In this document: positions 19,339-44,453 of the stretch, piece after piece
How the letters are laid out: each line of letters begins with the position of its first letter
Position numbering within the stretch: the first letter of the stretch is position 1
From: Thuidium tamariscinum
Taxonomy: Eukaryota; Streptophyta; Bryopsida; Hypnales; Thuidiaceae
Assembly (NCBI GenBank): GCA_947034885.2
Contig: OX344753.2
Span: 14,074,001 to 14,138,000 of the forward strand
Reading direction: 5' to 3'
Length of the DNA: 64,000 nt
Translations under genes and position numbers: made by a program
The notes under the pieces: model-generated
Database searches by the model: none
What the model was told of the DNA's origin: nothing
Seen by the model: the letters and a program-made list of their open reading frames with translations, nothing else

Positions 19339-19520
19339 CCCTTGAAGGATAGACTAGTGACTATGGAAATCATGCATTTTGATACCATTATTACCATATG
19401 ACATCACCTACTTTGAAAAGGCCAAATATACTCATTGGAAGAAAAGTTGCATTTTTGTCCTAGAAGGTAAAATTCTTTGTCATTCAAAGGATGCCAAATG
19501 TCCTCAGCAGCATTCAAGGG
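19339..19520. mobile_element. Short TTAA-flanked element, 182 bp
   Basis: Ends CCCTTGAAGGAT and, reverse-complemented on the right, CCCTTGAATGCT, each directly flanked by TTAA. The ends resemble the CCCCTAAAGG family but are diverged. No coding capacity. Confidence 0.5.
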
Positions 19521-19845
19521 TTAATCGGATTATAAACAAATTGGGAATGGGTTCAAAAGTAGGGCTTGACATTAGAGAGGGATAGGAATGGATTGGTTAC
19601 CTTATTTTTAGTCTTGGTGTATGTCTTTAAGTAAAAGCATGTCCCTTTTTGTAATTGGTTATTTTTGTGGTTCCTTATCCTAAATTGAGAATAGAAGGTC
19701 TTTGATTCCAAATTTTTTTTAAATTTATTTATTTATGGTATGTAACAAATTTCAACATTTTTGTTATAAAGCTCAATTCAGTGGTAGTTCATCCATACTC
19801 TATGGTTTAGAAAGCATGTTCAAAACTTCTTGCACTCTTGTTGAA

Positions 19846-20690
19846 CCCCTAAAGGATTAATGTGCCTTTGTTTATAATCCAATTTTTGGGAAAAAAATTT
19901 GAAAATAGAAAAAATGATTAGCTTTATGGGAGTATAATTTTTTTCCCAATTGATGCTAGGGAACAAAAATTATGCCAAAATAAGCTCAAAACAAAATCAA
20001 GTAGCAAAAACAAATTTGAATTTAAAAAATAATCTCATAGATTATTATTTTTTCTACAAGGAAATCTTTGATTCATTTCATTTGAATAAGTTATGTGAAA
20101 AATATAGATATTCTTGTTTTTGGAGCAATCTAAGCGTCTTCTAGAAAAAATAACTTGTAGAATTCATTTATGAATGCAATTTTTATAATTTTTTGAAAAA
20201 AAATTCCACACAATTTAGTTTGCTTACTAGAAAAATCTCACCAATGGGATTATTGTGTTTTAAATCAATCTTAGAAATATTAATAATTTAGACCTTCCTT
20301 TGATCTTGTACCTACTTATACTTGACAATTTTCTTAAGAATAAAAATTAGGTTTTTTTAATTCATTTTTTCTTAAAACTCTTGACTTAATTTCCCACTAT
20401 GAAGATCTAAAGCTCAAAACTCTATAGTCCAAAAAAATTAAGTTAAGAAGGCTCAAAGTCAAATAATCAAGACTTGCAATGTGCAAAAAAATTGTTTTCT
20501 TTACTTTAAGCAAAGATATCTTGCAATATGTGCTATCAAAAATTTTGAAATTTATTCTACAAATTTTTATACTATTTAAATATAAGATCCTATGGTCAGA
20601 TGTTCAAAATAATTATTTTCAATTTTTTAATTCTTTGCAATAGAAATAATAGTTTTCAATTCTTTTTTGATACATTCGGATACAATTTTT
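19846..20690 (+). mobile_element. TTAA-family element, right end eroded
   Basis: It starts CCCCTAAAGGATTAATG, preceded by TGAA (a probable mutated TTAA). The body shares with the elements at 26352 and 37447 a block about 120 bp in (GATTAGCTTTATGGGAGTAT) and a 3' part with TTTGCAATAGAAATAATAG. The last 20-30 bp, including the terminal repeat, can no longer be recognised, so the end is approximate. Confidence 0.6.
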
Positions 20691-21129
20691 TTTATCACAA
20701 GTAGAATATAATAGTAGAGTAGAAAGGAAACTTTGACTTGAATCCAATAATTTATCCTCTACAAATGATATTTGTGTATAGAAAAAGGTCAAAAGGTGAA
20801 GATAGCTAGCACTCATAAGATCATTATGAATTCCAAATTGATTGATTGGATTGCATATGTGTATATTAATTTCACATTTGTTGAAAACCTTGCAAAAAAA
20901 AGTTAAATAGTTTATTCTATTCAAGCACATAAATTCTACCTATTAATAGTTTTGAACTTAAGAAATATACCTAAATATGTACTTTAGAAGACAATAAGCA
21001 AAATTAATATAGTAGTACTAATTGAAAATGTGTCTCTACAATATAGAGCATTTTTTTTGTCTTGTCAAATGTTTCTTTATTACATTGAAGTTTTTGAAGT
21101 GATTTATTTTAAGTCCTACACATATTTAA
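20691..21129. other. AT-rich spacer
   Basis: No gene or terminal repeat recognised. Confidence 0.4.
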
Positions 21130-21943
21130 CCCCTAAACATCTAAGCCTTTCCAAATGTGTTTTGACTATGAAAAAAAAGCCTTGACTTGTAGTTATTCTA
21201 GTGAAGCATATTGTGTTTTTTTCCAAATCTAATCATACAAATGTTTATGGAGCTTGTTTATTAGTATGCACACCAATTTTGAGTGCAAAATTTCATAGGA
21301 TTTGTGAGATTATACCAAGAAAAATGTGCATTTTTTATTTTTAGTATGTTATCTTTGCCTAAAATGTTTTAGAAATTTGCATTTTAAAGTTTTTTGGAAT
21401 TGGAGATAAATGAACAACTACAAAGAGTGATAGTACACTAAAATGCACTTCCAAAAAACTTAATCTCACATGAAAAAACATGAAACTCATTAGACAATCC
21501 AACTTGCAATTGTTGAAATGCAATTTTCTTTTATAAGTAGAGATTGCAAATAGTTTCAAATCAACACTTACATGTTGAAATTTTCAATGGTGAAAATCAT
21601 GAAAAGACTTTAAGCTTTTCAAAGAGCTGAAAACATTCTCAAAGCAAATGGATAAGTACAATTTCTTTGATCACAAATCAAGTGAAATTGCCAAGCTTTA
21701 CATAAAGGCGGGAAATAAAGTAAAATTGGCAAGTTGTACACTCCACTGATAGTATTTATATGCCTTTGAAGACCTCTCGATAATCAAATATACACTTTTT
21801 TTAGTGAAAAATAAAAGTTTTCAATAGTTAACCTTTAAAATTGCCCAAATTTTTTTATAACAATCAAAGGAATTTAACTACCTGCCCACAAATGGGCCTA
21901 AATTTTCAAATTGAACATATATAGTCAACTAGGCTTTTAGGGG
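21130..21943. mobile_element. TTAA-family element, 814 bp
   Basis: Left end CCCCTAAACATCTAAGCC; right end, reverse-complemented, CCCCTAAAAGCCTAGTTG. Intact TTAA stands on both sides (21126-21129 and 21944-21947). No reading frame of note. The body is not obviously the same subfamily as the 26352 or 29185 copies. Confidence 0.7.
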
Positions 21944-22505
21944 TTAAAGAGGGCATTTTTGATCATATATACTTGAGGCGTTATTAGAACCTACTTTAAT
22001 CACAACAAGAAAATATTTAATAAGAGCTTCCCCACAATATTGTACCAATAGGCCTCAACATGGCCAATGGCTGGGTCATATCTAAGTAATTGCCCCACAT
22101 CATACTTGTTAAGTGAAAATTAATGACCAAACACTTCAAAAATTATCAAGGACACAAGCAAATAAAGAATCTTGGTTGTGACTCACTAAGCTACTCTGTA
22201 TTTAATAATCCATTTGACCTCATGTGTTGAAAATCTTCTCTTCAAGAATGCCAAAGATTCTCTCAAAATATTAAAATAGTAGTTATAAGTGGATTGTTTT
22301 ATTACTTGGGGAGTCTCTCAATAGGACCACAACTCTTTACAAAAAATGGTCTCTTGAATGAAGGATGCCTAACTTCAAATATTTCCTATATGGCCCCCTT
22401 ATGTGTACCATATTGCAAATGTTCTAATGGAACCAAAATGGCATTTGAAATTATGAAAATAAAATAAAATAAAAATAAATTATATCATATTTCAATACAA
22501 GTTAA
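21944..22505. other. AT-rich spacer
   Basis: Nothing recognised apart from short A/T runs. Confidence 0.4.
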
Positions 22506-23075
22506 ATCCTAAAGGACTAAATGGTTGTTGAGCATATGCAAATGACCTCAAGTAGGTGCATATGGAGTCATTTTTGTTTAGATGTTTATGAATTTTGGAC
22601 ACAATGTACAATCATGTACATCCTTGCTATGAATCTATTTTTTTAATCAAGTGCCTAGATTAAAAGTTATGTTGTATCTTAGGTAGCTTTAGGAAGTATG
22701 TGCAAAAATCTTCCTAAATATGATTTGAAATTTTGTGGATATGCAACTTACATGATATAAGATGCAAATGTGAAAAACAAAACAAAGCAAAAATAAAAAT
22801 ATTTGTAGTGTAATAAAAATCTCATTTTAGAAGGAATTATAGTTTATAGGCCCCATGGAGCAAGATTGGAAAAAAAATTCATCTTATTTAAAACATTATA
22901 GTCTTCTAATCCATGCAATAAAAGAATTTGAAATTTTTTGCATACATTTTCAGGAAAGCTAGTACAAATTTGAACAATTGAATTATAGAAAAAAAAATTA
23001 TCATTTTTTCTTACTACCCTAAAAAGTAGCACTCTTGACAATTTCTGCCTCAAATTTGCCTCAGTCCTTTATGGG
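22506..23075. mobile_element. Possible TTAA-family element, 570 bp
   Basis: Left: TTAA then ATCCTAAAGGACTAAATG. Right: CAGTCCTTTATGGG then TTAC. The ends pair as imperfect inverted repeats and the flanks are TTAA and a one-base variant. It is a more diverged copy than its neighbours. Confidence 0.5.
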
Positions 23076-25056
23076 TTACAATAAAGTTCAATAAATCATC
23101 AATCTTTCTTCCTTATCCTTAGGTGTAATAAATCATGAATATTGGTTGGTTCCATAATATAATTCATTGAAGATGATTATTACTAAAAAAAATTTAAAAG
23201 TTGTAAGTTTTTAAGAGTTTAGAATATGTTGGAAGTATAGTGAGAAGCCAAAAACTAGTTGCATGGTCATTATCTACAAACTTAAAAAAATAACTTCTAA
23301 ACCATCTACAAAAATGTCTTGATCCAAAAAGTCCCAATGACCCTACAAGGGATAAAGTGGATTCTAGATAGGTTCCATGATTTCCTATAAACTTTTTTCA
23401 AAGATTGAAATTTGGACTAGTAATGTGAAAGTTATGGAGTTCCTTGTATTATTGGCAATCATACCATCTTCCTTGTTGTTGAGATTAGTGTACTTCAATT
23501 TCATCTTAGAACTAAAAATGGTTTAATATCCCTTTTAGTCTTGTACCAATTTTTACTTAAGAATTTTTGTTAGAATGAAAATTATCAAGTAATTTAGGAA
23601 AAAAATTCCTAAACTTCCTACTAAAATCTTTAACATAAGAAAATGTAATTAAAATCTTTAGTATAAAAATCTTATGTTAAAAAGATTCTTAGTCAAATAA
23701 TCTAGTCATAGAATGTGCACAAAAAATGTCTTCTGCACTATTAATGCAAATATCTAGTGATCTTTCACACATTCTTACACGATCTAAAATACTACTTAAT
23801 CATACATTTCAATATGTGAAACAATCAAGTTGCAAAGTTTTTCCCTATTTGCAATAGAAATGGCAATTCTAAGTGCTTTTTGACAAATTAAATCTTCAAA
23901 AAGTCTAGGAGTTAATCCATTTGTTGTTATTTTTGCATTTAACAAAAAAAAATCTTCTCCTTCTTAAGATAATATTGTGCATTACTTCCAACCTTGGTGA
24001 ATAAGGTTATTATATTTGAGGAAAAAATTTTACAAGGAAAAGTTGAAATTGAATTTCACACCAAATTTTAGAAGGTCAACTTCACCCTATATATACCAAT
24101 GACAATTACAAGGTGACATAAGGATCTTTTGATTAGTATTACTTAGCTTATGCCTAATCTCATCATGATGTGGAGGATGCAAGGTGGGAACACCTATAAT
24201 CACCCCTTGCCTAAAATCATTATCATCACTCTATATACATTCCAAAAATCAATCATGTATGTATACATGATTGCAAGAAACATTTGTACTATTTGTTGCA
24301 TTTTGCAATAATACTCATGACTTTTTTTGGAATACTTTAAAATTAGAAAACTAATTTTAAAATTTTAAAGAAAATATGTCTTATGTATACACCTTTAAGA
24401 TGAAGGTTCTTAGGGAAAAATGCATAGAAAAATTCTCTAAATAAGAGTACTTGAAAATGGCCAAACCTCAAGAATATAGGTAATTTGATGTTTAAATTAG
24501 TTAAAAATAGTAAAAATAATTTAATACAAAAAATAAATTGGGCATTTGTAATAATTCTATAGAGATGGTCATTCACCAACAAAAAAAACATTTTATATGT
24601 TTCAAAATACAAGTAGAAAGAAGCTCATTTTGTAGACTTTTAGACCACACAAAATTAATTATTTTAAAAATTTCTTAAGCCATTAGCTACAACCACCTCA
24701 TCCAAATTTCACCTCAAAATTCATTTTTGGGGGTACTAAATAGTACTAAAAACCTCCAAATTGACAATTGTGACATTCAATTGGGGTCTATTTTTGGATA
24801 GTATACTATTTTTGTTAATTATGAAAAAAATAGGTAAGGTGTATGATAGTCATGAGTATCTTTTCTATAAATCTTGAGTCATTTGAAGCCAAAATGCAAA
24901 AAATATGGTGAAAAAACAGAGATGTGTGAAGGAAAATAGTACAAGTGTTTCTTGCAAATCACTTGTTGAATAGACAATTTTAGTAACTAAACCAAAAAGA
25001 CTTTGATTCTTCATAACTTTTGTATATCGTATTCAAATGCCACATTCTTTGGTGTG
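23076..25056. other. AT-rich repeat debris, no gene seen
   Basis: About 2 kb of low-GC sequence. A short palindrome (AATCATGTATGTATACATGA) lies near 24251. No protein family is recognised on either strand. Confidence 0.4.
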
Positions 25057-25424
25057 TTGAAACCTCCTTTCACTTGCTAATAAGAATTTATGAAATTTTG
25101 ATCAATATAATATTAGTAACTAGGTACAAGAGGAAAAAAATTGTGGTTTGGATAGGTACCGACCTTTAGCTTATACATTGCAATGCATTAGACAAGAAGC
25201 TTTTGACACTAAGGTAGTCTATTTTAAAAGTGCCCATGATTTGAAACCTCCTTTCACTTGCTAATAAGAATTTATGAAATTTTGATCAATATAATAATAG
25301 TAACTAGGTACAAGAGAAAAAAAATTGTGGTTTGGGTAGGTACCTACCTTTAGCTTATACATTGCAATGCATTAGACAAGAAGCTTTTGACACTAAGGTA
25401 GTCTATTTTAAAAGTGCCCATGAT
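25057..25424. repeat. Tandem duplication, two 184-bp units
   Basis: Units 25057-25240 and 25241-25424 are nearly identical, each containing AACCTCCTTTCACTTGCTAA and a GGTTTGGRTAGGTACC block. Only a few substitutions separate them, so the duplication is recent. Confidence 0.85.
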
Positions 25425-26347: not shown

Positions 26348-26351
26348 TTAA

Positions 26352-27271
26352 CCCCTAAAGGACCATTGTCCCCTCGGGGGACAATTTTGAGTTCGGGCAG
26401 CTTCCGTAGACCTCAATTTTTAATGAATATTTTTGAAACTTTTTCATAAGATAGGAAAATTGATTAGCTTAATGGGAATGTCATTTTGATTTCAATTGGT
26501 GACCAAGAGCAAAGTTATACCACAAAAAGCACGGATTTTAGTTCAGCGGGCAGAATTTTTCTTTTGCAAAAAGTCACGATTTGATTTAAAATTTTTTTTT
26601 TTCCTAAAATAATATATTTTTGCCTACATGTGAAGCTTTGATTCACTCTATTTTGACTTATAATGAGAAAGTTATGGACAATCTTGTTATTCGGGCAATC
26701 TAAACAATTTCTCGAAAAAATAACTTATAGGATTCATTTTTTAATGCAATTTTCACAATTTTTCAAAAAAAATTGTTGAACAAGGTTATGTTTACTTGCT
26801 AGAACAATCTCACGATTGGGATTATTGTATTTCAATCCCATCTTAGAGTTATTAACCATTTAGTTTTTCTATCAATCTTGGACCTACATGTACTTACCAA
26901 TTTTTTAAAGAATGAAAATCAAGTGTTTTTTGTGTGAAATTTTTTTCCTAGACTCTCAACTCAATTTTTTAACACAAAAAATTATAAATTCAAAGTCTAT
27001 AGTGCAATTTTTTTTTACAAATGCCAGCCAAAGTCATCTGAAATTGCAAACCACAGTTCAAAAAAACTCGTATTTCCAACTTTGAATGCTCATATCTTCC
27101 AATCTGTACGGTCAAACTTCATGAAATTTTTACCACTTGATCTCAATTAAGTTAAGTACAAGATCCTACGGTTAGATTCTTACCAAAAAAAATTGTTTTC
27201 TTGAGTGAATGCAACAGAAATGGCAGTTTTGAAAGGTTTTTGACAGAAAAAAGGCCTTGGTCCTTTAGGGG
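26352..27271 (+). mobile_element. Complete TTAA-family element, 920 bp
   Basis: Left end CCCCTAAAGGACCATTG, right end reverse-complemented CCCCTAAAGGACCAAGGCC, with perfect TTAA at 26348-26351 and 27272-27275. The sequences on either side (CTTTTTGAAAAAGTG and GATGGCAATCACTTC) are contiguous in an unoccupied relative on the minus strand near 53023-53062, where CCAA stands in place of the insertion. This gives direct evidence of mobility at a four-base site. There is no transposase frame inside. Confidence 0.85.
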
Positions 27272-27426
27272 TTAAGATGGCAATCACTTCAATATGGTGA
27301 AGTATTGTATTTCTACATTCATCCATCTTTTGGACTTTAAAACACTTTTTCATCATATTCATACACTTTTTCATCCAAATTTGGTGACTTCATCTATACT
27401 AGGGTGGCCCATGCCATTGCCATGGT

Positions 27427-27800
27427 CTAATTTTTTTAATGTATAGAAACTTCAAAATTCAATAACTTTCATGCCATAGGTTGGAACACCATGAATCAAA
27501 GCCCGTGCACCCCTCCTCGCTGAGGGCTTTCCAACAGTACCAAACACACACCCAGGGGACTCACGGTCCGGGAGATCTCAACATAACAAATAAACAAACA
27601 GAATAAATAATTTTCTAATTTTTTTAATGTATAGAAACTTCAAAATTCAATAACTTTCATGCCATAGGTTGGAACACCATGAATCAAAGCACGTGCACCC
27701 CTCCTCGCCGAGGGCTTTCCGACGGTACCAAACATGCACCCGGGGGACTTACGGTCCGGGAGATCTCAATGTAACAAACAAACAAACAAACAAACATCCA
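27427..27800. repeat. Tandem duplication, period 188 bp, ending in a CAAA microsatellite
   Basis: Two copies start at 27427 and 27615. Both contain TTCATGCCATAGGTTGGAAC, CCCCTCCTCGC and GGTCCGGGAGATCTCAA. The second copy ends in repeated CAAA units. A diverged third copy lies at about 56320-56500. The pair interrupts the repeat that continues at about 27840 and is seen uninterrupted at 50451-50690. Confidence 0.8.
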
Positions 27801-28300: not shown

Positions 28301-29184
28301 GTGAAAGTTTTTTGGGGGAATGTTCTAGAATGACTTCTTCAACATACATTCATATTGATTTTGGAGATGTACACAAGAGTGATAATGGCACTTTTAGCCA
28401 CGGTGTAATTTTGGATGTACAATACATACTTTATAATGTATTGGGAGATGTATTAGGTGAGAAAACATTTTTTATTCTAACCCTTTAATTTCAATTTTTT
28501 TTTTCAAAAATGCTATTTTTGAGTATCTCCTCACAAAACATTGATTTGTACAATACAAAAATATAGAATTTTACATGAAGACTTCAAGTGTAAAAAATAG
28601 AAGTGTACTTGGTAGTGTTATAGTGTGTCAAATTTGGTGCACATCTAACACGACACTTTGTGACAATTTTGTGTATAGAAAAACATATGATTAGATACTT
28701 TGTGCATTATTCAATGACCTCATTCAATATTTACAATTATAAAGGAATCATAGCCGCCCCCCCCCCAAAAAACAAACAAACAAACAAACAAACAAAAAAC
28801 ATTGGTCAAGCGAAACAAACATGGACATGAATTCAAAATTTTAACCTTTCTAATAAAAGATTGCAAGCAAGCTCACAAATTTTTCTTAAATTTCTATTGA
28901 GTTTCTAATTTAGAAAACAATGCAATTCAAATATGGTTCAAGTAGTGGACTTATACAAGCCTCTAACACTAACTCATTTATTTATTACAAGGTAATAAGG
29001 TCAATTTTGATAGCTAACCACAAACTTTATGATCTTTTAAAATGAAGCATATAAATTGAACTTGCAAATGTTATTAATCTGTTATAGTATACCATTGTAT
29101 ATTGTTACACATTGTTAAATATTAACTTATAATTAATGTATTATTAGTGTATCTTGTAGTATTTGAAAAACTTAAACAATTTAA
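28301..29184. other. AT-rich spacer with a homopolymer and CAAA microsatellite
   Basis: 28756-28800 is a C-run followed by repeated AAAC units. The first 130 bp resemble 53700-53830 and belong to the same dispersed repeat. No gene seen. Confidence 0.4.
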
Positions 29185-30111
29185 CCCCTAAAGGATCAAA
29201 TTATGTTTTTGGGCAACATAGCAATTTCGAGCAGCTCACTACAGATGGAATTTTTATTTTTTTTCTTTGAAATTTTCACACAGGATGTGCCCGAGGAGTA
29301 TCTTGAAGGCCCAACATTTTTTATAACTTTTGACTACATGGTCAAAAAGTTATTGCATGATATGTAGTTTTCATTGGTCGCCGGGTAGTCCAAAAATTTC
29401 TTATAAAAACATTTTTTTTGAAATTAATAATTTGAAATTGGTTTTCTAGATGTATATATGTATGCAAAAATATTTGAATCATTCCATTTTGATTTATGAG
29501 ATGAAAGTTATGAGGAGATTTAGTTTGCTAGCAATTATGGATTCTCTACCCTAAAATAAACTTTGGAAGCCTTTACTTTATTCAATTTTAAATATTTTTG
29601 AAAAAAAATTAAAAATTTGGATGTTAATTGTTTGTCACAACATTACAACATTTGATATTGGCCTTTTTTGATTTCTTAAATAAATTTTTTAACAATTTAG
29701 TATTTTGAATGACTCTCTACTTCTTTCTACTCATTAATTTTTTCATGTATGTTCTACAATTCCAAATGATGCGAATTTTTTTGAGCATGTAGCCAACTTG
29801 CTATGAAGAATGAACCCAAAGAAGAACCACCATTTTGGGTATTTTTTCATAGAAATGTAACCTTGTGAAGAGCAGCTACCCGATTTTTTGCAGGGACAAA
29901 AAAGGGGTTTTGTCAATTCAAATGCTAATATCTTGCAATCTACGTGGTGGAAATTTCTGAAGTTTTTTCCACATCTTTTGACACCAGTGTACTAAAAGAT
30001 CCCATGGTTACATATGTCAAAAAATGTTTTTTTTCAAAAATTTGGTGCTTATAGTAGAAATGACAGTTTTAGTGTGTTTTTGGTGAAGACATAGTCTCTG
30101 ACCTTTAGGGT
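29185..30111 (+). mobile_element. TTAA-family element, 927 bp
   Basis: Left TTAA then CCCCTAAAGGATCAAATT; right CTGACCTTTAGGGT then TTAA. The body is homologous to the copies at 43505-44453 (same strand) and 40778-41722 (opposite strand), sharing CAACATAGCAATTT and GCAGCTCACTACAGATGGAA near the left end. This defines a second subfamily, distinct in body from the 26352 copy but with the same ends. Confidence 0.8.
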
Positions 30112-30867
30112 TTAAGAGACAACATTTATGTCATTTTTAATCCATTATAAGATTTGTTCAACTAGCCCAAAGTTTTAATTTTGGGTGGATTTCAAGTTAT
30201 TTAATATTACATACCTAGAGTGAAAGCTCTAGGCTATTCATGAATCTACAAGGTCAAAATTATCTATTTTCTTTATAGTCTTTCCTCAAAAAATTTAGCT
30301 ACTTTCTTCCACATCCAAAAGAAATATTAAATGATGTTAAATTGATAAGAAATTAAATAGGATAAGTTTTTTTAACACATGCAACCTAAATCTAAATTAA
30401 AGACAAAGTTATTAATTGATTATTTGGCAAAAAATACCAATTCTAATAGGTGGGTGCAAGGATGGGTGTACTATTTGAACAAATCAATGTAGTTAAACTT
30501 GAAAAGACCAAGACCTTTTTTCTACAAAAAAACACACTTGAAATTTTCATTTCTATAGGAAAGAATAAAAAAATTTGAAAACTATATTTTTTTGTATTTC
30601 TAACCATAGGATCTTATGCCTAACTAGCATGAAAATGTATGGAAAAATTTTCAAATTTTTTGATTGTATAGATCATTGCAAGGTATCTAATATTTAAAAT
30701 TAAAAACAAGTTTTTCAACACATTGTAGGACTAGATTAATTGCCTTTGAACCTTCTTAACTTTAATTTTTTGCACTACAAAGTTTTGAATAGTCTCAAAT
30801 GTTTTTACCAAATTGGAGATGATTATGTTTAGTTTGGAATATATCTAGTCTTCCATCTAATTAAGAT
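30112..30867. other. AT-rich spacer before the LTR
   Basis: Low-GC sequence with no recognised gene. Confidence 0.4.
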
Positions 30868-31979: not shown

Positions 31980-32300
31980 ATGTGGAACATGGTGTCAATA
32001 TGTATAGTCCCATCTCTCCACCCTAATGCACATATAAATTTTAAAATAATCACCAAGTACATATGCAATGCAAGTATAATGTCCACTAAAGCATGTCATG
32101 TCGACTAAAGCATCATATAATACATTGTACACTGCATACAAAATTCCATACATCACTTACAATATTCCATATACAATACATCATACACATGCCATACACC
32201 AAACTTAATACTCCATACAATTTACACATTACAATATACACCATATTTCACCTCAAAAGGCATTTGCGTTTGAATATGTAAGGAGGAAAACTGAAGCTCT
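31980..32300. repeat. Degenerate CATACA-rich low-complexity stretch
   Basis: Repeated short blocks such as CCATACA, TTACAATAT and ATACACCA. No gene is supported, although a 62-codon frame passes through it. Confidence 0.4.
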
Positions 32301-32303
32301 TTA

Positions 32304-35300
32304 AGGTAGGAGCACCCATATCCATCAAACTAAGGAAAATGAGATACCAGATATAACAGATTGAGCTCAAAACTTTTGTAGTTACACTAGCAAGAAGAAA
32401 AGAAAAATAATGGCATCAATTGCTGCAGTTCACTGAGAACCATGTGTTTGCACAGAATTTTCAAAGTAGAAAATCATTGAAAATGAATCTCCATCCATAG
32501 GTTTTCCTACAGTAGTTAGAAATTGACACCTTCAGCGTCCTACAAGTATTCATTGCTAAGCCTTCATAGTCCCTGCAATAGCTACAGAGAGTATTTAAAT
32601 CCGTCATAAATTACCTCCAAATACCATGCCAAGGGTATCGATATACCATGCCAAGGGTATCCACATACCATGCAGGCAGTGTTACAAAAGCACCCACAAG
32701 TTCCCTTCTGCCATCCCACAGAGGGAGAGAAACCGCGTCTAAAGTACCTCGAATTGCCCAAAAAGGACCCTACTGTACCTGCTGGCCCACCTAACTGCGT
32801 CAGCCTGGGCCCTCGGTCGATGCAGCTCGTTCGGGCAGAAGGCGGACCGTTGAAGGCGGGACTCCGTCGATGAAGCTCGTCCGGTCAGGGAGGCGGACTG
32901 TTGAAGCACAGGCGGGGAATTATTTTGAACTAGCTAATGAATCTCCCGCCTTCCGCAACGTCTTCCTCCGCCCTTCCTTGCTGCGGCGTGACGACCCCAC
33001 TTCGACGTCGACGGTGTTCGATATCGAGCCTTTTTTTAGCTCGCTCTGTCGCCTTGCGAGCCTTCTCGCGCTCCCTTTCAGCTTTCCGTTGATCAGCTTG
33101 GATGCGGCGCATCATCTTCTCCGCTTCTTTACGATTTTTTTCTTCTTGCCGTTGCACCCGTCGCTCCTCTGCCTGTGTCTTGCGCAGCTCGCGTTCTCTT
33201 GCCACAGCTTCTCTTTTTGCCAGTTTGGCTTCCATCGCAGTGATGTATTCAGCAGAGGTCATCAGGATAGACTTACTGTAATCAATGAGCGGCTCTGTAG
33301 AGTTGGAGTGCCTGCGATTTGAGCGCTGCACTTGCGGCAAGGGAAATAGATCTTGTATGCTTTCTGTCACTCCTCCCTCACCTTCTAAATCACTGCTATT
33401 GTCTGACTGGGTGCTGGATTCTTCTCCTGCTACGAAATATTGAGGTTGTGGTGACTGGGTCTCGAGGATGCACTCTTCTTCTCCCTCTGCAACTGCTCCA
33501 TTTGTGTCCATCGGGTCATCTTCATCTTCCTCGTTCTCTGCAGGTGGCTCTACATAACATTCACTAGGTTGCATATAAGTGTCCATGGCAGATGGGTGTA
33601 GTGGCCAGATTCCAGTGCTGGAAAAACCCTTCATAATCTTTGTTGATGTAAGTGCTTTCTTCAATCCTGAAGACACCCACTCTGCAAGTTCTTCTTTTTG
33701 GGCACCCTTCCCTTTGTTTTGTATGGTCCATCTGTCTCTGCATGCTCGAAATGCAGCCTTAAAAGGCTTGAAAATACTAACATCCAGTGGTTGCAACCTA
33801 TGGCTTGTGTGGCTAGGTAAGGTGATAATGTCTAGACCTTCTGCTGTGGCCTTCTGCACTACCTCAAGAGTTACATGTGATCCGTGTCCATCTAAGACAA
33901 GGAGGTGTCTATTTTCACATGAGATTCCATACCTTTCTCTAACTATAGTGATGAAATGAGAGATCCAAGCTAAAAATAGAAAAGCAGTCATCCACCCATT
34001 AGGTTGCATTGCCATACAAGCTTGGGGTTCACATCTAACTATGTAATTTCTAAGTTTTCGCTTACCTTTGAAAATATAGAAGTTAGGAATGTATTGGCCT
34101 GCTGCATTCACGCATGAGAGAACTGTCAAGTGCTCCCTACTGTTTGGGATGGTTGTATGAACAGATCTGGTGCCCCGTCGTGCTAAAACAAGGGTCCCCC
34201 CTCCGTTCTTGCCTGCTTGTGCTCCTGACTCATCTGCATTCCATATATGTGTTGGTGGATAACCTTGGCGTTCGTATACTTGCTTTAGATTTTCATAGAA
34301 AGAAGCCACGCTTTCTGGATTCAGTCCTCTTGCACGTCCTTCCTCTAGTCCTTGTGCAGTTCTTAAAGTTAGCTCTGGATGACGTTTTCGAAACCAACGC
34401 AGCCATCCGCGTCCGGGGATGCCATCCTTGAAGGGCGTCCAGCGTTCTTGTGTTATCTCAGTGACTTTGCTCTTCAGCTCTAGAATAGAAATCGGATGTG
34501 CATGATCTTGCATTTGTAAGATCCATTGAACAAGGGCTGCTTCTTCTTCTTTAGTCAACACTCCTTGCCTTCCCTTTTTGCGTTGCACAGTGCGTCCGTT
34601 TATGTGGTCACGGAGGGAGGAAGGCGGGATTCCAAAACCTCTGGCCACGGTGGTTAATGGGGAACCAGCGTCCATTGCTGCAATAGCAGCGACGAGTTGG
34701 GCATCGCTCCATGTCCCAGTCTGTAGTCTACGGCGCTTTCTTCTTGGAGTTGCCATCGTTGCTGCCGCAGGTAGTTCGCCCCTGAATTGGGCCCCTCCTC
34801 GCTCCATCGATGTCGGAGGCAGGCCACCTCCGAACTGGACCCCTCCTCGCTCGGGGGCTGTCAGAGGAAGCCCACCTCCGAGCTGAACTCCTCCTCGCTC
34901 CATCGCATGCAACCCGCCTCCGAACTGGGCCCTTCTTCGTTCCCCTGCTACCGCGCTGTCGCCTCCGAGGTGGGGCCGATCGAGCTCCGTTATTGCTGTT
35001 GGGCCGAGCTGGACCCGAGTCAGCCGCCTGGGCCCTTCCTCGTCGATGCCACCTTCGAAGTCCTCAAATTCAACAGACCCGATCCACGGTGCTCGACCCG
35101 GTCCACGGTAAATGCCATCGATGTCAACACTTGTAGGTACTGGTGTGCTTCCTCGCTCAATGAATCCGCCCAAGTTTGGTGATGTTGGTCGTGTCGGGGC
35201 CCCTCCTCACCATCCACGGAAAGAATCACTACCGAGCCTTTCTGCTGCAGGTCTGCAGATTGTGAAGCTCTCCTGCCTAAGACTTCTTTCCTCTAACTCA

Positions 35301-36037
35301 TGACATCGATTATCTCGTGCAATTCTAAATGGTTGCAGTTCAGGAGCCCATGATTCTGGATAGTTGTAGGGACTCTCGAAATATTGTTCACTCTGTACCG
35401 ATGCAGTTGCCATGGACCTCACTCAGAAACCGAACCTTACTATTCACTAATTGTCAATCACTTGAATCCTTCACTAACTATAGCTTATCGTAAGCTCTCA
35501 TGCATTTAATCGATGACAGTAATCTAAGTGTAGATGAAGCAAATAATCCCTCATGCATTTAATCAATCACCCTGATCTAAGTTAAGCTTTGATGACATAT
35601 AGAACAAGATGCACTTGTCACTGAAAGTTGCACCTTCCACTGTTTTATACTTTTACACAGCCGTCATTCCACGTTTACATCATTGATTATCAAAGCACCT
35701 AAAGTAGATACTATGAACTCCATATCTGTCTCTTTGAAAGACAATATCGTTGAAGACTGCGCATTTAATTATGTTAATGACACTCTTAGTCGCCTTATAG
35801 TGTACCCTTCATCAAAGCTGCATTGACCTTCAAATTTTTCTTACTGACTTCAGTGGTACATATGTGACACTACTTGCCAACCCTATAACCATTTCCATTG
35901 CACTTAAAACCGTTGCATTTATCACCCATCATTTCCATTTTCTTTAGGTTGTAAGGTATGGGACTGAAGGCAACAGTTATGGGTGCAAATATAGGTCACG
36001 ACCATGGGGACAGTCACGTTTATGGGTGCTCCTACCT
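32304..36037 (-). mobile_element. Pogo-like Tc1/mariner transposon, 3,734 bp, apparently autonomous
   Basis: The inverted ends AGGTAGGAGCACCCATA match perfectly over 17 bp. Both are flanked by TA (32302-32303 and 36038-36039), the target preference of the Tc1/mariner superfamily. The element carries one long transposase gene on the minus strand and has much higher GC than the AT-rich DNA around it. On the upstream side of the gene, CTCATGCATTTAATCRAT is repeated with a 53-bp offset (35497, 35550) and could be a transposase contact site. It is inserted inside the CACTA element. Confidence 0.9.
32930..35413 (-). CDS. Pogo/Tigger-type transposase (psq HTH, CENP-B HTH, DDE_1)
   Basis: A frame of 747 codons (35173-32930) has no stop. 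Counting from 35173, an arginine/lysine-rich start and a psq-type helix-turn-helix lie at about 145-195, and a CENP-B-type HTH at about 205-275 (ending GRGWLRWFRKRHPEL). A DDE_1 catalytic domain at about 305-520 has D314 (WNADESG), D428 (LVLDGHGSH) and D464 (LQPLDVSIFK). An acidic stretch (540-600) and a Lys/Glu/Arg coiled coil (645-725) follow. Residues 78-135 hold four copies of ERGGVQFGGGLP-like repeats. No ATG stands at 35173. The best ATG is 35413, in the same frame but separated by one TGA at 35207-35209; a small intron with donor ATG|GTGAGG just before that TGA would remove it. Internal ATGs (residues 91 or 140) are alternatives. It cuts and pastes DNA at TA sites in the nucleus. Confidence 0.9.
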
Positions 36038-37446
36038 TATACATGTTCGAGGGTGGAAGGTAAGACAAACCATATGGGACATTGTCTTGAAATGCAGAAA
36101 TTGGGGCTAAAAGTGCATTTTTAGACCAGATTTAGGCATAGTAGAGCAATTTTTTTCAAAATACTTTCAACTAAGAAAAGTTGGTGATTTAAGCTAAGTT
36201 TCATCTCCAAATTTTTTTTTCAAATTCCAAGTCTTTAACTAAAAGTTATGGGCAAATTTAAGAGGCTGATTAGAAGGGGTAGTTTCTTTGGCTTTTTTTT
36301 GACATTTTCATTGACATAAAATCTAACATCCTTTCAAAACTAGTGATGTTGTAGAAGACATGACATTTATTGTTAGAATGTTGCACATGATGTCTCAATG
36401 GACATGTTCATGTTGTTCACAACATTCAAACAAAGGCATTTGTGTTAGAATTTTATCTCTACATTCTAAAAGACATATCTTTTTAATAAATATGAATTTC
36501 AACCTACAATTTTGAGCTTTATTTAATAATAATTATAAGTTTCTAGTGCCAAAAACTTTCATTTCAAATAACAAGTGGTATGTATTTTAGAAAAGATTGA
36601 AAAATGAATTGAAATGGTTTGTTTTTTAACTCAAATAGTTATAGAGATCACATTTAGATGACTATTGCATCAACAATTAAGGAAAATAAACTTTCAATAT
36701 GAAGTTACATTTTAGAATGTTTTGTTGAATTTTTAAACATTTTTGTCTTATATAATATAGGGGTGAAGAAATTATTTTTAGCTTTATAAGTATCTTTTTC
36801 ACTTGAAAAATTTGTAATTAATTATTGTAAACAAGAAAAAATGTCAAATTTTTTAAACATAAATTTTCAAAGTATTATATTCTCTTTATATTTTTGTCAA
36901 GCATTTAAATGTACTCCTTATGTATAAGTATATATAAGTAAATAAGTATCTATATATATGTATCTATATATGAATAGATTTTACAACTTTGAAAGTTTAT
37001 GTTTAGAATTATCAATATTTTTATTTATTCAATGTAATTAGTTACAAATTTCTGGAATAAAGGAATACACTATAGAATTAAAAATAACTATCACACTCAT
37101 ACATTATTATGTTAGATAAAAAATTGTCGTAAACAAGAATGAAAAATTGCAAAAAATTACTCTCTATTAAAAATCAATTTCCAAATAATTATGAAAAAAG
37201 AGAACAATGTGAACTTTTTTATTCTTATTGAAGACTTATGTAGTCCTAAGAAGTGGCACTCTCTCTTATATTTTGCATACACCTACAATAATGACTTATT
37301 TAAAAGGGGAGTATTTACCTTGCAAAATTCATGAAAAGACATAGTATTTTTTAAATTAAAGATAAATGTTGGTGATTAAATAATTGCATTGTATTAGTAA
37401 TTATAATTTTTTTGGTGGGCATTTAAAAATATAATATGTTACTTAT
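36038..37446. other. Interior of the CACTA element, AT-rich, no gene
   Basis: Noncoding low-GC sequence with a short TATATA/TATCTA tract near 36925-36970. No transposase motif recognised. Confidence 0.45.
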
Positions 37447-38220
37447 CCCTTAAAAGACCATTTCCCTTTGAGGCACAAATGGAATTTTGGGCAAGTACTT
37501 ACAAGTTCAAATTTTATCCTGATTTTTTTTTTAAATTTGAAGATAAAAATGTTTATTGTCTTCATGGGAATATAATTTTTTCAATTGATGTCTAGGAATA
37601 AAAGTTACATTCAAAATTGCTCAAAATAAGGGAGATCAAGAAACAAAACAAATTTTGAAAATTTGAGTTTAAAAAAAAATAACTTGTAGGATTCAATTTC
37701 AAATGCAATTTTTACTATATAAAAAAATTTGCTACATGGTTTAATTTTTTTGCTAGAACAATTCCACCATTGGGATTAGTGCATTCTAATTCCACCTTCA
37801 AGATGTTAATTATTTAACTTTTCCTTCCGTTTCATACCTACTTCTATAGAATACTTTTTTAAAGAATAAAAATTAAGTTTTTTTGTACTCTTTTTTCCCT
37901 AGAGTCTCAACTCAATTATACATTTCAAAGATTTAAAGCTCAAAACTCTATAGTGCAAAAAAATTAAGTTAAGAAGGCTCAAAGTCAAAAAAATTAAACC
38001 TCACAATGTGCTAAAAAACTTGTTTTTTTCACTTTAAATGTAAAGATCTTACAATCTATATTGTTCAAAATTTTGAAATTTATTCCACATGCTCTCATAC
38101 TAAAAATACTATGGTTAGATTTGGAGAAAAAATAGTCTTCAAATTTTTTACTCTTTGCTATAGAAATAGAATTTTTTTTAAATTTTTTAACAAAAAAATA
38201 AGGCCTTGGTTCTCTAGGTA
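37447..38220 (+). mobile_element. TTAA-family element inside the CACTA element, 774 bp
   Basis: Left TTAT then CCCTTAAAAGACC; right GGCCTTGGTTCTCTAGGTA then TTAT. The body is homologous to the copies at 19846 and 26352 (shared GGGAATATAATTTTTTCAAT and the TAAGGCCTTGGT end). Matching but altered flanks suggest insertion at TTAT or a mutated TTAA. It is an older, shortened copy. Confidence 0.6.
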
Positions 38221-38859
38221 TTATACCTCATTATTTTCCTATAGACCCCAATCTTTTCAAGATTACACACCATTTTTTTCCCTTAGATACTAAGTTTTAA
38301 AATATTTTTTGCATATACCATATGTACCTTGCAATGAAGTACTCTATTTAGAATGTGGGCAAAATTTTATGACAAATCACCCCATTCATGAATACATTTA
38401 AAGCTTCATATGGTAATCTATAACCCTTTTTTTAGTTACTTACATTTGTATATATTATTTTATATGTACTCTTCAGTCTTCATATAATTTATTGTATTAT
38501 GTCCAACTCTATAGTTATATAATCATGCATGTTTCACAATTTTAAAGCACCCTATGATCAATATAATTTTTTACAAATTTTACGTGAAATGAATATATTA
38601 AACCCTATATTTTATTACACATTGTTCCTATATTTTTCAACAATGCTTCACCCCAACTCCCCAAGTTGTAGTCAATTGTCAAATCTAAGAGAAGGAAGAA
38701 ATATAAAATGTTATAATTTTAGTAAGGTAAATTTTGTCAATTGTGAGACTAAAAAATATTGCAAGTCTTAATTTTTTGTAGAAAAAATCTATTCCACCCT
38801 CATTACAAAGAAAGTGTGTCTTAGTCTTAGTCTTGTAAAGATATATCCAATTGTAACAA

Positions 38860-39670
38860 TGAGAAAGAAATGAATGTTGGTATTTTCTAAAGGAAAAGAC
38901 AAACTCCAATAATGAAAAGATTGTTTGGATCCCCTCATTCTTCTAAGAAAAAAGGTCAATTGCCCTAGAAATTCCCTTAAAAAAGAAAAAAATATAGATG
39001 TTAGTGTATTCACTTGAAGAAATTAATTACTTTATGTATTGAAATTTTGAAAAAGGCATACATGATTTGAATCTTATAAACTAAAGTTATTGCATATAAA
39101 AAAATGTAGGTGTTACTAATACTCATACATAATTAATAATTAAAAAAAACATGGATGTTTAGATTTGTAAAGAGACAATATTGAAATTCAAATAGTGAAA
39201 AGAATATGAATTGTGTGCTTATTCATTTAAAGAGAATTTTCTATTGTAAGAAAGAAAGAAATTGAAATTATCCAATCTTATATTGAAGAAAATACTTACC
39301 TTTGATTTAAAAAAATATGGGTGTTTTTATTAGTGCAAGAAAAATATGCAATTGTAATTGATAGTGCAAAAATACAAATTATGTTGTTATTCTTCTTTAG
39401 AGCCCTCATATGCAATTGTAGTAAAAAAAATGAGAAAATGGGACTTTCTAATCTTGTAATAAGAGAAATACTCAAATACAATAATATAAAGAATATAAGT
39501 GTTCTAGATTTCCTAATGACAATATTCAATTGAAATAATGTCATGAATAAATTAAAAAATTTCTTATTTTACCAAGAACTACCAGAATTGGAATTACAAG
39601 GAAAAAAATGTTTTTATCAAGTAAAGAATATGCTCAACAAAAGGAAAAATAAAAAATATGGATGTTCACA
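38860..39670. repeat. Degenerate array of an A-run plus ATATGGRTGTT motif
   Basis: An A-rich run followed by TATRGRTGTT or a close variant recurs near 38989, 39098, 39146, 39197, 39309, 39367, 39487 and 39650. Most spacings fall near 50 or 110 bp. The motif is too diverged to define one unit, but the recurrence is clear. It lies in the right half of the CACTA element. Confidence 0.45.
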
Positions 39671-39914
39671 ACACATGAAAGCCTTTGTTGATATAGTCGT
39701 GCTTACATCAAAGAAGACATCCCCAGTAGCTTGCATAAGGTTTGCTTATCCTTTCTGATGTTATGAATTGCATAGTGATTAACATTTGCTTTGATGTTAC
39801 GATTGCAAATAGTAAATAACAATTCTGTTAAAAGTGATGTCTTTAAAAACATTTTTATGTCTAGTATGATGTTTAAAAAAACATCCAAAGTTCTAACATA
39901 GGTTTGTCATGATT

Positions 39915-40005
39915 GCTGACGTGGCATGCCACGTCAACATACCATGTCCACGTCACGTAATTTTCACGTCATTGGTCCATGTCAAATGCCATGTCACCTA
40001 ATTTT
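39915..40005. repeat. Right subterminal repeat cluster of the CACTA element
   Basis: GACGTGGCATGCCACGTC forms a near-perfect palindrome at about 39919, followed by CCACGTCACGT, CACGTCATTGG and GCCATGTCACC. It mirrors the cluster at the left end and supports the CACTA assignment. Confidence 0.7.
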
Positions 40006-40777
40006 CCACACCATCTACCCGTTTTCATCTTTTTTATCGCGGTCAGTCATTTTACCTCTGACCGAACTAATACTTTGTTAATTACTTTAATTAAGTTTGA
40101 CCAACAATGATGACGTGACTATGAATGTTTTTTTGGATGATTTTAAAAACATTTTTATGTTGACAACGATGTTTTAAACTACATCATTGTTTTGGATAAC
40201 ACCAATTTGTTGTGACAATAATTTAGCATGCTTTTTATAACATTTAATTAAATCTTCCCTTTTTTTAGCCTTCATTACTAGACATCCCAATGTTTTATAA
40301 AACATATAATGTTTTTTTGAACATGTTATGTTTTTGGCCTGACACCAAAAAAAACACGGGTTTCTTATAGTGGAAGTTGTGTTGCGAAATTAGTGTGGAC
40401 CTATTGAATCGGTGAGATGTTGCAAGAGAGTACAAGGAGCCTAATTAAAGATTTATGAATGAGTCATGGAGTGTGTTGGATTGTGTTATATAGTTAAGGA
40501 ATTGAATCTATTAGTACAGAAATTTCCTACTTGAGTGTCTGCCTTGGAACTTATTATTTTAGTAGGATAATTTCCGATTCAATCATTATTCTTCTTCAAC
40601 AAAGATTATTGGCTTTCTAAAAAAGAAATCTTGAGCAATTTGTAAGTAAATTTTTACAATATTAATATTTTTAGAAGTTACTTCAACAATTATGAAAAAT
40701 AAAATCTAGTATTCTTTATACATTGTTTTTGAACTCAATATTACAGATTGCCAACATCTGCAATATTTCTTACTTAA

Positions 40778-41722
40778 CCCCTAAAGGTTTTTGACTATGT
40801 TTTCACCAAAAATTCTCCAAAACTGCCATTTCAAATACAAGTGCAATTTTTTTTAAAACACATTTTTGACTCATGTAACCGTAGGATCTTGTATCAAGGT
40901 GGTTTGTAAACATGTGGAAAAAATTTCAGAAATTTCCACTGTGTAGATTGCAAGATATAAGCATTTGAATTGACAAAAATTGTTTTTTTTATCCCTGTGA
41001 AAATCCGGGCAGCTGCACTTCACAAGGTCACATTTGTGTGAAAAAAAATTCAAAATGGTGGTTACTCTTTGAATTCATACTTCAATGCAAGTTGGCTACA
41101 TTCTCAAAAAAATTCAAACCATTTGAAATTGTACAACATATAGGAAAAAATAAGTAAGTAGAAAGAAGTAAAAAATGAGCCAAAATACTAAATTGTGAAC
41201 ATTTTATTCATGGAATTGAAAATTTTCAATCCCAATGGTTAAAATGTTGTAATAAACAATCTACACCTTTTGTTTTTATTTTTTTTCCAAAAATATGAAA
41301 AATTGAATTAAATGAAGAATTTCACACTTTTTTTGTACTGTAGAGATTCTGTAACTGGCCGCAAACTACCCCAAACTCAAAATCTTCATAACTTTTGAAT
41401 CATTGATCGGAATGGATTGATTCAAAGCTTCACATGTCTGTATAAACCTAAAGAACAAATTTGAAATTTCACTTTTAAAAAAAAAGTTTTTTTGAAGAAG
41501 TTTTTTCAGCTGCCTGGGTTGCCCACCAAGTAAAGAAAACAACATATCCTGCCATAACTTTTTAACCGTGAAGTCAAAAGTTATGAAAATTGTCGAACCT
41601 TAAAGCTACTCCTTGGACACACATTGCATCAAAATTTCAAAGAAATGAAATAAAAACTCCATCCATAGTGAGGTGCCCAAAAAATTTATAATCTCAAAAA
41701 ACGATGTTAAGGGCTTTAGGGG
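40778..41722 (-). mobile_element. TTAA-family element, 945 bp, reverse orientation
   Basis: TTAA then CCCCTAAAGGTTTTTGAC on the left; GGGCTTTAGGGG then TTAG on the right. It is the 29185 subfamily in reverse: the right 100 bp, reverse-complemented, matches the left end of the 29185 and 43505 copies (calls to CTCACTA and ATGGA blocks). Confidence 0.75.
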
Positions 41723-43504
41723 TTAGTTCAATGTTGCAATCTACAAACATCACACCTAGTGATAAGGTAGAACCATCTATAATTGATCATTTAAGATATT
41801 CTAGACATAATCTAGTGTAGTGCATGTTGAAGCAAATATTTTTAGACGTGCAATGATAGAAATGATAGAAATGATGGGGATTACAAAAACTTTGGTAATT
41901 TTGTCACATGAATTGAAATTATTATAAATTTTAAAAGAAAAAAGTGCAATGGACCCATTGCCAATCTCTAGAGTCGATTCTTCCAATTTTGATCATTCAA
42001 AAAACTACTTTTTCTCTTAGTGCTTCCAATTTTTTTGTGTACTACTTTGGGACATGTGTCAAAAAAATTTAAAAGCTTACAATCCATTTTTGATCATTTA
42101 AGGAATTGAGCATAGATTTTGATTGAGTTTGTTAAGGAAAAAAACATTTTTGTGTAGAAAAATAGATTTAAGACAGATTAAAAAATTTTAAATATTCTTC
42201 CAACTAAAACCAAAATTACTATGAATTTCTTTCTTTAACATTTTTTGAAACCTATTCTTGACATATAAATGTGTCTAATTCTGATCATAGGCTGGTTAAA
42301 AAATGCAAAGGAAATCAATGACTCATAATGCATCATAATGGGCTAGTTTCTCCCACTTTATATGCTCAAAATAGAATAGTCTAAACTTTGGAAATGGTAG
42401 AGTGATTGGAAAGAAGTTGGCTACTTTAGTCCCAACTTTGAAAAAGAAAAAGAAAAACATTCTAATCTTGGTTGGAAATACATCAATCTAACTTAGAAGT
42501 TGGCTATGGAGTGCAGATTGGTTATGGGCAGTATTTAATTAAAGTTGAAAGTATCAATTAATAAATGATTAAATGCCTAAGAAAAAAAAATTATATATGA
42601 ACTTGTTCTAAAAAAACTAAGACTCCAACAATCCTGACATTTGTTTAGATATTTTCAAGTCAATTTGGAATCACTTTAATCTCACAATGGGCAAAGGGCT
42701 TCCAAATGCATGTATATTAACCCTTTAGGGACTAGTTGATTTTTGGACTTTTTGTTTGTTGTTGTTTATAGAACATCTCATTTCGAAAATCCCAGAGAAC
42801 AATGCAATTAGAATATCTTTGTACACTCCTAACAAAATCAATTTCAAGGAAATGTGTACAAAAATGCATTAGCTACACTTGTCCAAATTTGAATTGGCCA
42901 ACCCTTCACATGTGAAATATTACAAAAATATTTAATGAATGTAAGAGATGACCACTTATATGTGTGAAAGAACTAATTGGAAGGTTTAGGATTGATTTCT
43001 GGAGCATTTAGTGAAACTTATGTCCAATTGTGGCAAACCATATTTAGCACCAATACATCAATCTTTGAAGATTAATTCAAAGGATGTGAATCCTTGGATC
43101 ACTTTCATTTTTTATTAAGTTTAAGGATTTGTCCTATAGAACCTGTCCATAAAATTTGATTTAGAATTACATCCATAGTGTAGTCACAAAATGGGACTTT
43201 TCAAGAATTATATATAGAAATTGCGCCCACCTTCCAAATCAACCATGGTCACTACAAGGTTAAAATACTAGTAATATTAGAAATCACAACAGAAGACTTA
43301 AGCTTAGTACAATGTAAGCTATGTAAACTATTTGGGATTGGACTTGGAGCACGCTAGTGCATTTTTCTTGCAACAAATAATTAGTTCGTGCTCTTTTTTG
43401 TTTGTTTGTTTTTAAAATTTTCTTAATCTAACTATGTGTTATTTTTCATCTAAACTTTGTTTTATAAGTCGGGAATTGACTGTAATGGGGGGAAATATTT
43501 TTAA
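41723..43504. other. AT-rich stretch with one end of a dispersed repeat
   Basis: 41800-42015 is a dispersed repeat (next entry). TTAACCCTTTAGGG at 42717 resembles a family terminal repeat, but no second end was found. No gene seen. Confidence 0.4.
41800..42015 (-). repeat. Dispersed repeat, reverse copy of 54305-54520
   Basis: The reverse complement of this stretch aligns with 54305-54520. Shared blocks in order are AAGTAGTT, GAATGATCAAAATTGGA, ATAGTAATTTCAATTCA (with one change), CCATCATTTCTA and CTCTAAAAATATTT (with one change). Confidence 0.65.
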
Positions 43505-44453
43505 CCCATAAAGGACAAAATTGTTTTTTTTTGCAACATAGCAATTTTAGGCAACTCACTACAAATGGAATTCTTGTTTATTTCTTTGAAATTTTCTATA
43601 TGAATTTAATGCATTTCACATTAATGGATTATAATTAAAAATTCTTATTAAATATATTGTTGAAATCTTGGTATCACTATGTTGTTGTAACCTTATATTA
43701 AATCACTTGCAATCCAAAAAAATATACTATATACAATCCTTACAAACTAATGAGTGCATGCAACAACTCAAATTGCAACCTATATGTCTTCTATATATAA
43801 TTCTTTTGATGCATATGTATGTCAATTTCTTAAAACACTTATGGGAGTGGGTCTTAAATAGTGCCTTACAAGATGCCCCCAAATATTCAAGTCATTAAGG
43901 CTCAAAAAAGAAGTCTAGGCAATTTTTGGAGTAACTATGAATTCAGCCTCTACTATTGAGCCTATAGGGTGGTTAGCTTTAGAATTCATTTACTTCCAAA
44001 TTGTAATTGCTTTTTGCTTCAAGTTTTTGTGGATTGTAGTGCATAAAAAATATTACAACATCCATGTTTGTTCATTTGCATTTTTTCCACTTAGATTCAA
44101 TATATAGTGCACAAAGTAAAACAAAATCAAACATAGACTCAGTTTTTGGAGCCACCATACAACCATTTAAGACATTTTTTTGTACAAATGTGAGCTTGTG
44201 AAGTGCAGTTGCCTAATTTTTCAATTGCAAGGCTAAAAAAAGAATTTTTTTGTCAATTCAAATGCTAAAATCTTGCCATCTACAAGGTGGAAAATTCTGA
44301 AGTTTTTTCTACATCTTTTCAAACAAGGTTACTACAAGATCCTATAGTTATGTGTGTCAATAATTTCTTTTTCTAAAATTTTGTACTTGTAATAAAAATG
44401 ATAGTTTTGGAGCATTTTTGGTGAAAACATAGTCAAAATTAAACCTTTAGGGG
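43505..44453 (+). mobile_element. TTAA-family element, 949 bp
   Basis: Left TTAA then CCCATAAAGGACAAAATT; right AAACCTTTAGGGG then ATAA. It is the same subfamily and orientation as 29185-30111, sharing GCAACATAGCAATTT and AACTCACTACAAATGGAAT near the left end and the GTGAAAACATAGTC block near the right end. Confidence 0.75.

Follow-up and report, generated by a model that had tools for sequence, protein, structure and literature searches.

The 64,000-nucleotide window of Thuidium tamariscinum DNA analysed here contains a dense family of repeats flanked by TTAA, which are rather likely to be ancient, non-autonomous, MITE-like cut-and-paste transposons of ~0.2–0.95 kb that were mobilised in trans by a transposase specific for TTAA, most probably one of the piggyBac type. 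The TTAA repeats are genuine. Eight elements with both ends (E1, E3, E4, E6, E7, E9, E10 and E12) and three fragments (E2, E5 and E8) lie in the 19.3–44.5 kb part of the window, and another right end is present at 8164–8371 (Table 1). An earlier note on this DNA had counted nine copies in 25 kb, most likely E1, E2, E3, E4, E6, E7, E9, E10 and E12; these repeats are real, but eight of the nine possess both ends, E2 having lost its right one. Beyond these nine, there are E5, E8, the right end at 8164–8371, which falls outside the interval covered by that note (19339..44453), and a lone end at 15484, for which no partner end was found. The copies are old, with K2P distances of 0.30–0.72 between aligned pairs, and so single flank bases are unreliable.

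Table 1. Elements, fragments and E6-target relatives in the window
Feature	Position	Strand	Description
E1	19335..19524	+	TTAA repeats 182 bp apart; ends CCCTTGAAGG / CCCTTGAATG; own body; matches only itself
E2	19842..20697	+	Type A; left TGAA, then CCCCTAAAGGATT; right terminus lost; blastn to E6 and E9, alignment
E3	21126..21947	+	814 bp; TTAA, CCCCTAAA...TTTAGGGG, TTAA; own body; matches only itself
E4	22502..23079	+	570 bp, TTAA / TTAC; homology to type A over the right ~200 bp (nhmmer E=2.7e-8)
E5	23410..23885	+	Type A internal and right fragment, no recognisable end; nhmmer E=2e-33, 5.4e-5
E6	26348..27275	+	Type A, best kept copy; 14-bp perfect inverted ends; TTAA each side
E7	29181..30115	+	Type B, TTAA each side; 75% to E10 over 916 columns
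E8	30493..30793	-	Type A right part, TTAA at end; blastn to E2 and E9
E9	37443..38224	+	Type A, TTAT each side; sits within a CACTA-like element
E10	40774..41726	-	Type B; flanks CTAA and TTAA in family orientation
E12	43501..44457	+	Type B ends, ~95 bp on the left and ~300 bp on the right; middle without match; TTAA / ATAA
Decayed right end	8164..8371	+	Profile A, nhmmer E=2e-9; profile B, 2.6e-7; filters lax
Lone 21-bp end	15484..15504	-	Identical to E6 right end including TTAA
E6-target relative without E6	50432..50576	+	GTGCCAACA at site, then 13-base gap
E6-target relative without E6	52921..53077	-	GTGCCAAGATGG, no gap across site

The ends of the family read CCCCTAAAGGACC, and conservation stops four bases further outward, at TTAA. 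Allowing up to two mismatches, CCCCTAAAGGACC matches the window 10 times against 0.61 expected, a count reached in none of 100 shuffles; one of the 10 matches, at 32757, lies in no element. Similarly, TTAACCCCTAAAGG has 9, 14 and 19 matches in the 19.0–45.2 kb part at up to one, two and three mismatches, respectively, and 40 first-order simulations gave means of 0, 0.25 and 2.9 and maxima of 0, 2 and 9. C occupies the first, second and third terminal positions in 15, 17 and 18 of 19 ends, respectively, bearing out the CCC...GGG ends claimed previously, and the fourth position is C in 13, T in 4 and A in 2 of the 19, with a strict CC[C/T]T motif in the minority. The ends contain a telomere-like CCCTAAA, which was discounted because the end table holds no tandem copies.

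Four of the eight two-ended elements (E1, E3, E6 and E7) have TTAA on both sides and three have TTAA together with a one-base variant, in keeping with the claim of TTAA or a one-base variant on both sides, and E9 has TTAT/TTAT, most plausibly interpreted as a directly repeated target. Among 14 ends backed by body similarity, TTAA itself is found at 7 (P=4e-11) and a sequence within one base of it at 13 (P=4e-12), against chance backgrounds of 1% and 11%, respectively, these P values being approximate because the exact boundaries are those of the pattern matches. This test omitted E1, E3, the 15484 end and the left end of E4, which have no body similarity behind them, as well as E5 and the right side of E2, where no end remains. 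The next four bases outward of the same 14 ends are TTAA in none and within one base of it in 3. Over 19 ends, which were found with a pattern that itself includes TTAA, relative entropy is 0.78–1.56 bits at the TTAA positions and 0.06 bits at the next base outward. No flank agreement beyond 4 bp appears in the table of the eight two-ended elements. Mutator-like elements, with target duplications of 7–12 bp (PMC10741241), were rejected on the ground that the flanks agree no further than 4 bp.

Two sequences elsewhere in the window (50432–50576 and 52921–53077) resemble the E6 target without E6, and both carry a single 4-base site, the former with a 13-base gap just past it. They read CCAA rather than TTAA, and so the target of E6 itself must differ by two C-to-T changes. 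For the other seven two-ended elements, searches for unfilled sites within the window gave no match across the junction. The flanks, the 14-end test and these CCAA-bearing relatives together support the proposal of a TTAA target with a 4-base duplication.

PIF/Harbinger (Tourist) elements make a 3-bp TTA/TAA target duplication, and Spy-like elements insert without a target duplication. It is very improbable that the family belongs to either, as a Tourist-like group with a 3-bp duplication or as Spy-like insertions with TTAA forming part of the inverted ends. PIF/Harbinger is a plant superfamily (PMC10741241), and since TTAA is palindromic, the flanks alone cannot separate a repeat from an inverted end; nor can duplications of 3 bp and 4 bp be told apart from the joined E6 site alone. 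However, the outer T is kept at 5 of 6 ends on the left and 6 of 8 on the right (11/14, P=0.0009), and therefore TTA by itself is a poor fit, as is TAA, the fourth flank base being conserved on both sides. The previous rejection of a 3-base duplication is thus upheld, with small numbers. TTAT/TTAT at E9 is direct and not inverted, and the relatives of the E6 target retain a 4-base site where a model without duplication predicts none, which argues against that model.

Two main body types of ~0.9 kb had been described, here called type A (E2, E6 and E9) and type B (E7 and E10), but the two are related along their length. A type A profile, with E2 and E8 among its training members, finds E10 at E=1.1e-47 and E7 at 2.4e-39 by nhmmer. 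The two types are divergent versions of a single non-coding family. E12 matches type B over ~95 bases at its start and ~300 at its end, and E4 shares its right ~200 bases with type A; E1 and E3 have the ends alone in common with the family, their bodies being their own. The TTAA elements give no sign of coding. Substitutions between E7 and E10 fall 71/84/70 by phase, with no 3-base periodicity, and among the 62 stop-free stretches of at least 40 residues in E1–E12, the 20 longest have no Pfam match at its cut-off. Below that cut-off, the same 20 stretches gave ORC4_C (0.014), V-set_2 (0.062) and zf-H2C2 (0.092), which look like chance. The window contains no Rfam match at the gathering score and no tRNA, and an exact IMG/VR scan for TTAACCCCTAAAGGACC, from which the window's own genome records may have been left out, returned no contigs.

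The statement that no transposase is present here was wrong as written, since an uninterrupted pogo-type open reading frame of 758 residues lies at 32930–35206 in an element whose ends differ from those of the family. It is the sole transposase domain seen in the 19.3–44.5 kb interval and could for that reason be supposed to have moved the TTAA elements, but the pogo element has the ends AGGTAGGAGCACCCAT and TA flanks, and no TTAA element here has such ends. Mobilisation by pogo is hardly credible, being contradicted by both ends and target. No transposase with the ends of the TTAA elements was found within the 64-kb window.

One group of Sola elements prefers TTAA, and this preference favours a rather unlikely, though not negligible, alternative, in which the family consists of non-autonomous relatives of Sola, with its DDD transposase, 4-bp duplications and variable ends. 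Sola was absent from the considerations of the earlier note. In the excerpt of a review, Sola is one of seven plant TIR superfamilies, with 4-bp duplications like those of the TTAA elements and ends of 11–1124 bp, and is found in a moss (PMC10741241); in a table for the fern Ceratopteris, it exceeds PiggyBac, with 2,739 copies and 1.57 Mb against 1,230 copies and 0.12 Mb (PMC6890710). The feature shared with Sola is the 4-bp duplication; the combination of a CCC terminus with TTAA is the signature described for piggyBac (PMC10813416, PMC2872659). A non-autonomous form of Kolobok, the other TTAA superfamily, is very improbable. Kolobok has a TTAA-specific 4-bp duplication and occurs in chlorophytes and rhodophytes, but its termini are 5'-RR...YY-3', purine-purine at the 5' end, as opposed to 5'-CC...GG-3' here, and the distribution given in the excerpt includes no land plant (PMC9587614).

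The elements behave like piggyBac-type TTAA MITEs, their membership of the superfamily being putative. Published piggyBac ends conserve CCC, with the motifs CCCTC, CCCTT and CCCAT and also CACTA, and the target is TTAA with a few variants such as TTAG, CTAA and GTAA (PMC10813416). Autonomous piggyBac thus resembles the family in its TTAA target, CCC at the ends and a few one-base target variants, and differs in that the elements here have no transposase found within the window. A CC[C/T]T motif and ends of 12–19 bp are given for piggyBac-type elements, among which a coral MITE family with CCCCT ends and TTAA is counted (PMC2872659). Such coral CMITEs share with the family the TTAA duplication, ends of 13–14 bp starting with CCC (CCCCT in CMITE family III) and a non-coding body (PMC2872659), but are ~0.1 kb long as compared with up to ~0.95 kb here, where the host is a land plant. 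Moreover, the CMITEs are conserved in their interior, whereas the family described here has common ends and a variable middle.

A putative transposase would bind the ~13-bp CCCCTAAAGGACC ends together with the conserved subterminal DNA, ~95 bp on the left and 200–300 bp on the right. Supplied in trans, it would excise the element, and joining into TTAA through a 4-base staggered cut would leave TTAA on each side. The middle of the element is exchangeable between the shared end modules.

The description of piggyBac as rare in land plants is fair, though rare is not absent, as PMC10794571 and PMC6890710 mention PiggyBac. Its land-plant status in print is unsettled. In the excerpts, a 2023 review does not place it among the seven plant TIR superfamilies (PMC10741241) and PMC9033089 does not use the word; another review names it in a general list of plant superfamilies without detail (PMC10794571), and its isolation from insects, fungi and plants is mentioned (PMC10813416). 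The 1,230 PiggyBac-labelled copies of Ceratopteris amount to 122,417 bases (PMC6890710), a single copy of 75 bases is listed for the grass Stipa (PMC8319324), and piggyBac of insect origin is readily transposed in rice cells (PMC10905368). Among the literature matches listed, no title or abstract beginning describes a land-plant family of TTAA MITEs; the word in the excerpts of PMC10619864 and PMC7744516 is 'piggybacking', and in PMC2820488 TTAA merely stands inside a sequence.

It is an evenly balanced proposition that a land-plant lineage once hosted abundant endogenous piggyBac, which seeded TTAA MITEs and then died out, and, jointly with this, that the ancient non-coding copies are what remains visible of a superfamily that the reviews cited here leave in doubt as a native of land plants. 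A land-plant TTAA family that is dense, old and well defined would suggest a formerly native TTAA transposase, and the exact end sequences of the family provide a handle for finding it.

Both ends are recognisable in eight of the TTAA-flanked repeat elements between 19.3 and 44.5 kb of the window (E1, E3, E4, E6, E7, E9, E10 and E12), and three elements in this interval are incomplete (E2, E5 and E8). The consensus of the ends is TTAA followed by CCCCTAAAGGACC. Matches to TTAACCCCTAAAGG with up to one, two and three mismatches number 9, 14 and 19, respectively, whereas 40 simulated sequences of equal composition gave 0, 0.25 and 2.9 on average; such end-like sequences are far more frequent than expected by chance. 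Column scores are 0.78–1.56 bits at the four TTAA positions and 0.06 at the next position, for ends found with a TTAA-containing pattern. Because the search pattern itself included TTAA, the test was redone on the 14 ends with body similarity, where TTAA is present in 7 (background 1.0%, P = 4e-11) and within one base in 13 (background 10.9%, P = 4e-12), these P values being approximate because the exact boundaries still come from pattern matches. The control 4-mers just outside the same ends are TTAA in 0/14 and within one base of it in 3/14.

Since TTAA is palindromic, the flanks by themselves do not show whether these bases were duplicated or prolong the inverted ends. The flanks of E9, TTAT on both sides, form a direct repeat that favours duplication, and two separate mutations could also produce the pair. 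E6 sits in a repeat, two relatives of which lie in the window without E6. After E6 plus one TTAA is taken out, the relative at 52921–53077 can be aligned over the site with no gap (159 columns, 87%), and the alignment of the relative at 50432–50576 (158 columns, 80%) runs through the 4-base site before it meets a 13-base gap. A 4-base site therefore existed before E6 inserted, which argues against insertion without duplication. The site is CCAA, not TTAA, in both relatives, and so the target of E6 itself must have become TTAA through two C-to-T differences. With a duplication of 3 bp (TTA or TAA), the joined E6 site would be identical, but one of the outer flank bases would be free to vary, and the outer T is kept in 5/6 left ends and 6/8 right ends.

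Features of the window (window coordinates)
Feature	Position	Strand	Details
Reading frame with DUF3689	5803–6183	+	E = 4.7e-8
Decayed right end of the TTAA family	8164–8371		outside 19.3–44.5 kb; profiles built from copies, E = 2e-9
DUF3475 exon	15061–15369	minus	E = 5.7e-21
Lone 21-bp end	15484		same as E6 end, by sequence identity
Tandem duplication	25057–25424		184 bp, 98%
Tandem duplication	27426–27788		188 bp, 94% over 175 bp
CACTA-like element, about 9 kb	31365–40372		33-bp inverted ends (C)ACTATAAGAAACCCGTGTTTTTTTTGGTGTCA, GAA both sides; by eye
Pogo-type element	32304–36037		inverted ends AGGTAGGAGCACCCAT, TA flanks; by eye
Pogo-type transposase ORF	32930–35206	minus	uninterrupted, HTH_Tnp_Tc5 and DDE_1 domains
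Single end-like matches	42717, 50860, 63613		no partner end in the window for any of them
Long near-palindrome	at least 51450–52300		lies between the E6-target relatives; by eye

Type A (E2, E6, E9, plus the E5 and E8 fragments) and type B (E7 and E10), the two body types distinguished earlier, appear distinct by simple repeat search, but a type A profile aligns with type B almost end to end (E10, E = 1.1e-47; E7, E = 2.4e-39). Of type B, E12 retains ~95 bp at the left (84% to E7) and ~300 bp at the right (78%), no match being found for its middle. The right ~200 bp of E4 are type A, and E1 and E3 have only the termini in common with the other copies. The right module can be aligned across A, B, E12, E4 and the decayed right end near 8.3 kb. 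A variable middle between common ends is the usual picture of non-autonomous elements, which need just their ends. K2P between aligned pairs ranges from 0.30 (E7/E10) to 0.72 (E10/E12, a value that takes in the unmatched middle of E12). Substitution rates in slow plant lineages are roughly 1e-9 per site per year, and these distances would, as a rough estimate, place the copies at tens of millions to more than 100 million years.

The view that no transposase is present is contradicted by the 758-residue pogo-type ORF, carried within an element with inverted ends and TA flanks that is possibly a complete plant pogo element. The CACTA-like element, the ends of which differ only at the first base, encloses this element and E9, and so at least three kinds of DNA transposon are nested in the interval; the TTAA elements cannot be attributed to the pogo transposase. 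Among the matches listed (the best 120 of 123; 7,996 candidates scored), the closest relatives of the pogo protein show 67% over 77% of the query and 81% over 53%; the best-scoring ones from named species are those of Taxus chinensis, at 47 and 45%, and of Adiantum, at 39, 44 and 53%, with lower-scoring ones in a beetle, an oomycete and fungi. Of 62 stop-free stretches, mostly within TTAA elements, the 20 longest showed no coding remnant. Elsewhere, the DUF3475 exon points to a land-plant gene; this domain marks the plant PSI family, and the exon is presumably part of a PSI-type gene, to which the frames at 9722–10567 and 15731–16210 may also belong. The DUF3689 frame is probably an exon.

TTAA is duplicated by both piggyBac and Kolobok, according to passages of PMC9587614. 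Kolobok was rejected: its ends are 5'-RR, and those of the TTAA elements differ. PiggyBac ends conserve CCC and the target is TTAA with a small number of variants, among them CTAA, GTAA and TTAG (passages of PMC10813416), and one-base variants of this kind also occur here; CCCCT begins one coral piggyBac-type MITE family (part of PMC2872659). Because of the CCC ends, the TTAA target with one-base variants and the CCCCT-starting coral family, piggyBac is the best fit, as judged by ends and target only. Some Sola elements use TTAA. Sola is the main rival source of the family, since its target duplication is 4 bp long and a review records it in plants (part of PMC10741241). As for piggyBac in plants, the same part of that review lists seven TIR superfamilies without it; another, apart from its table, gives six TIR superfamilies and never mentions piggyBac (PMC9033089); the general list in a section of a third includes PiggyBac (PMC10794571); its isolation from insects, fungi and plants is mentioned in passages of PMC10813416; and a repeat table for the fern Ceratopteris labels 1,230 copies PiggyBac (part of PMC6890710). 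The family behaves like a piggyBac MITE and is a putative member of that superfamily. These land-plant elements form a real and old family, non-autonomous and TTAA-duplicating, that is probably of the piggyBac type.
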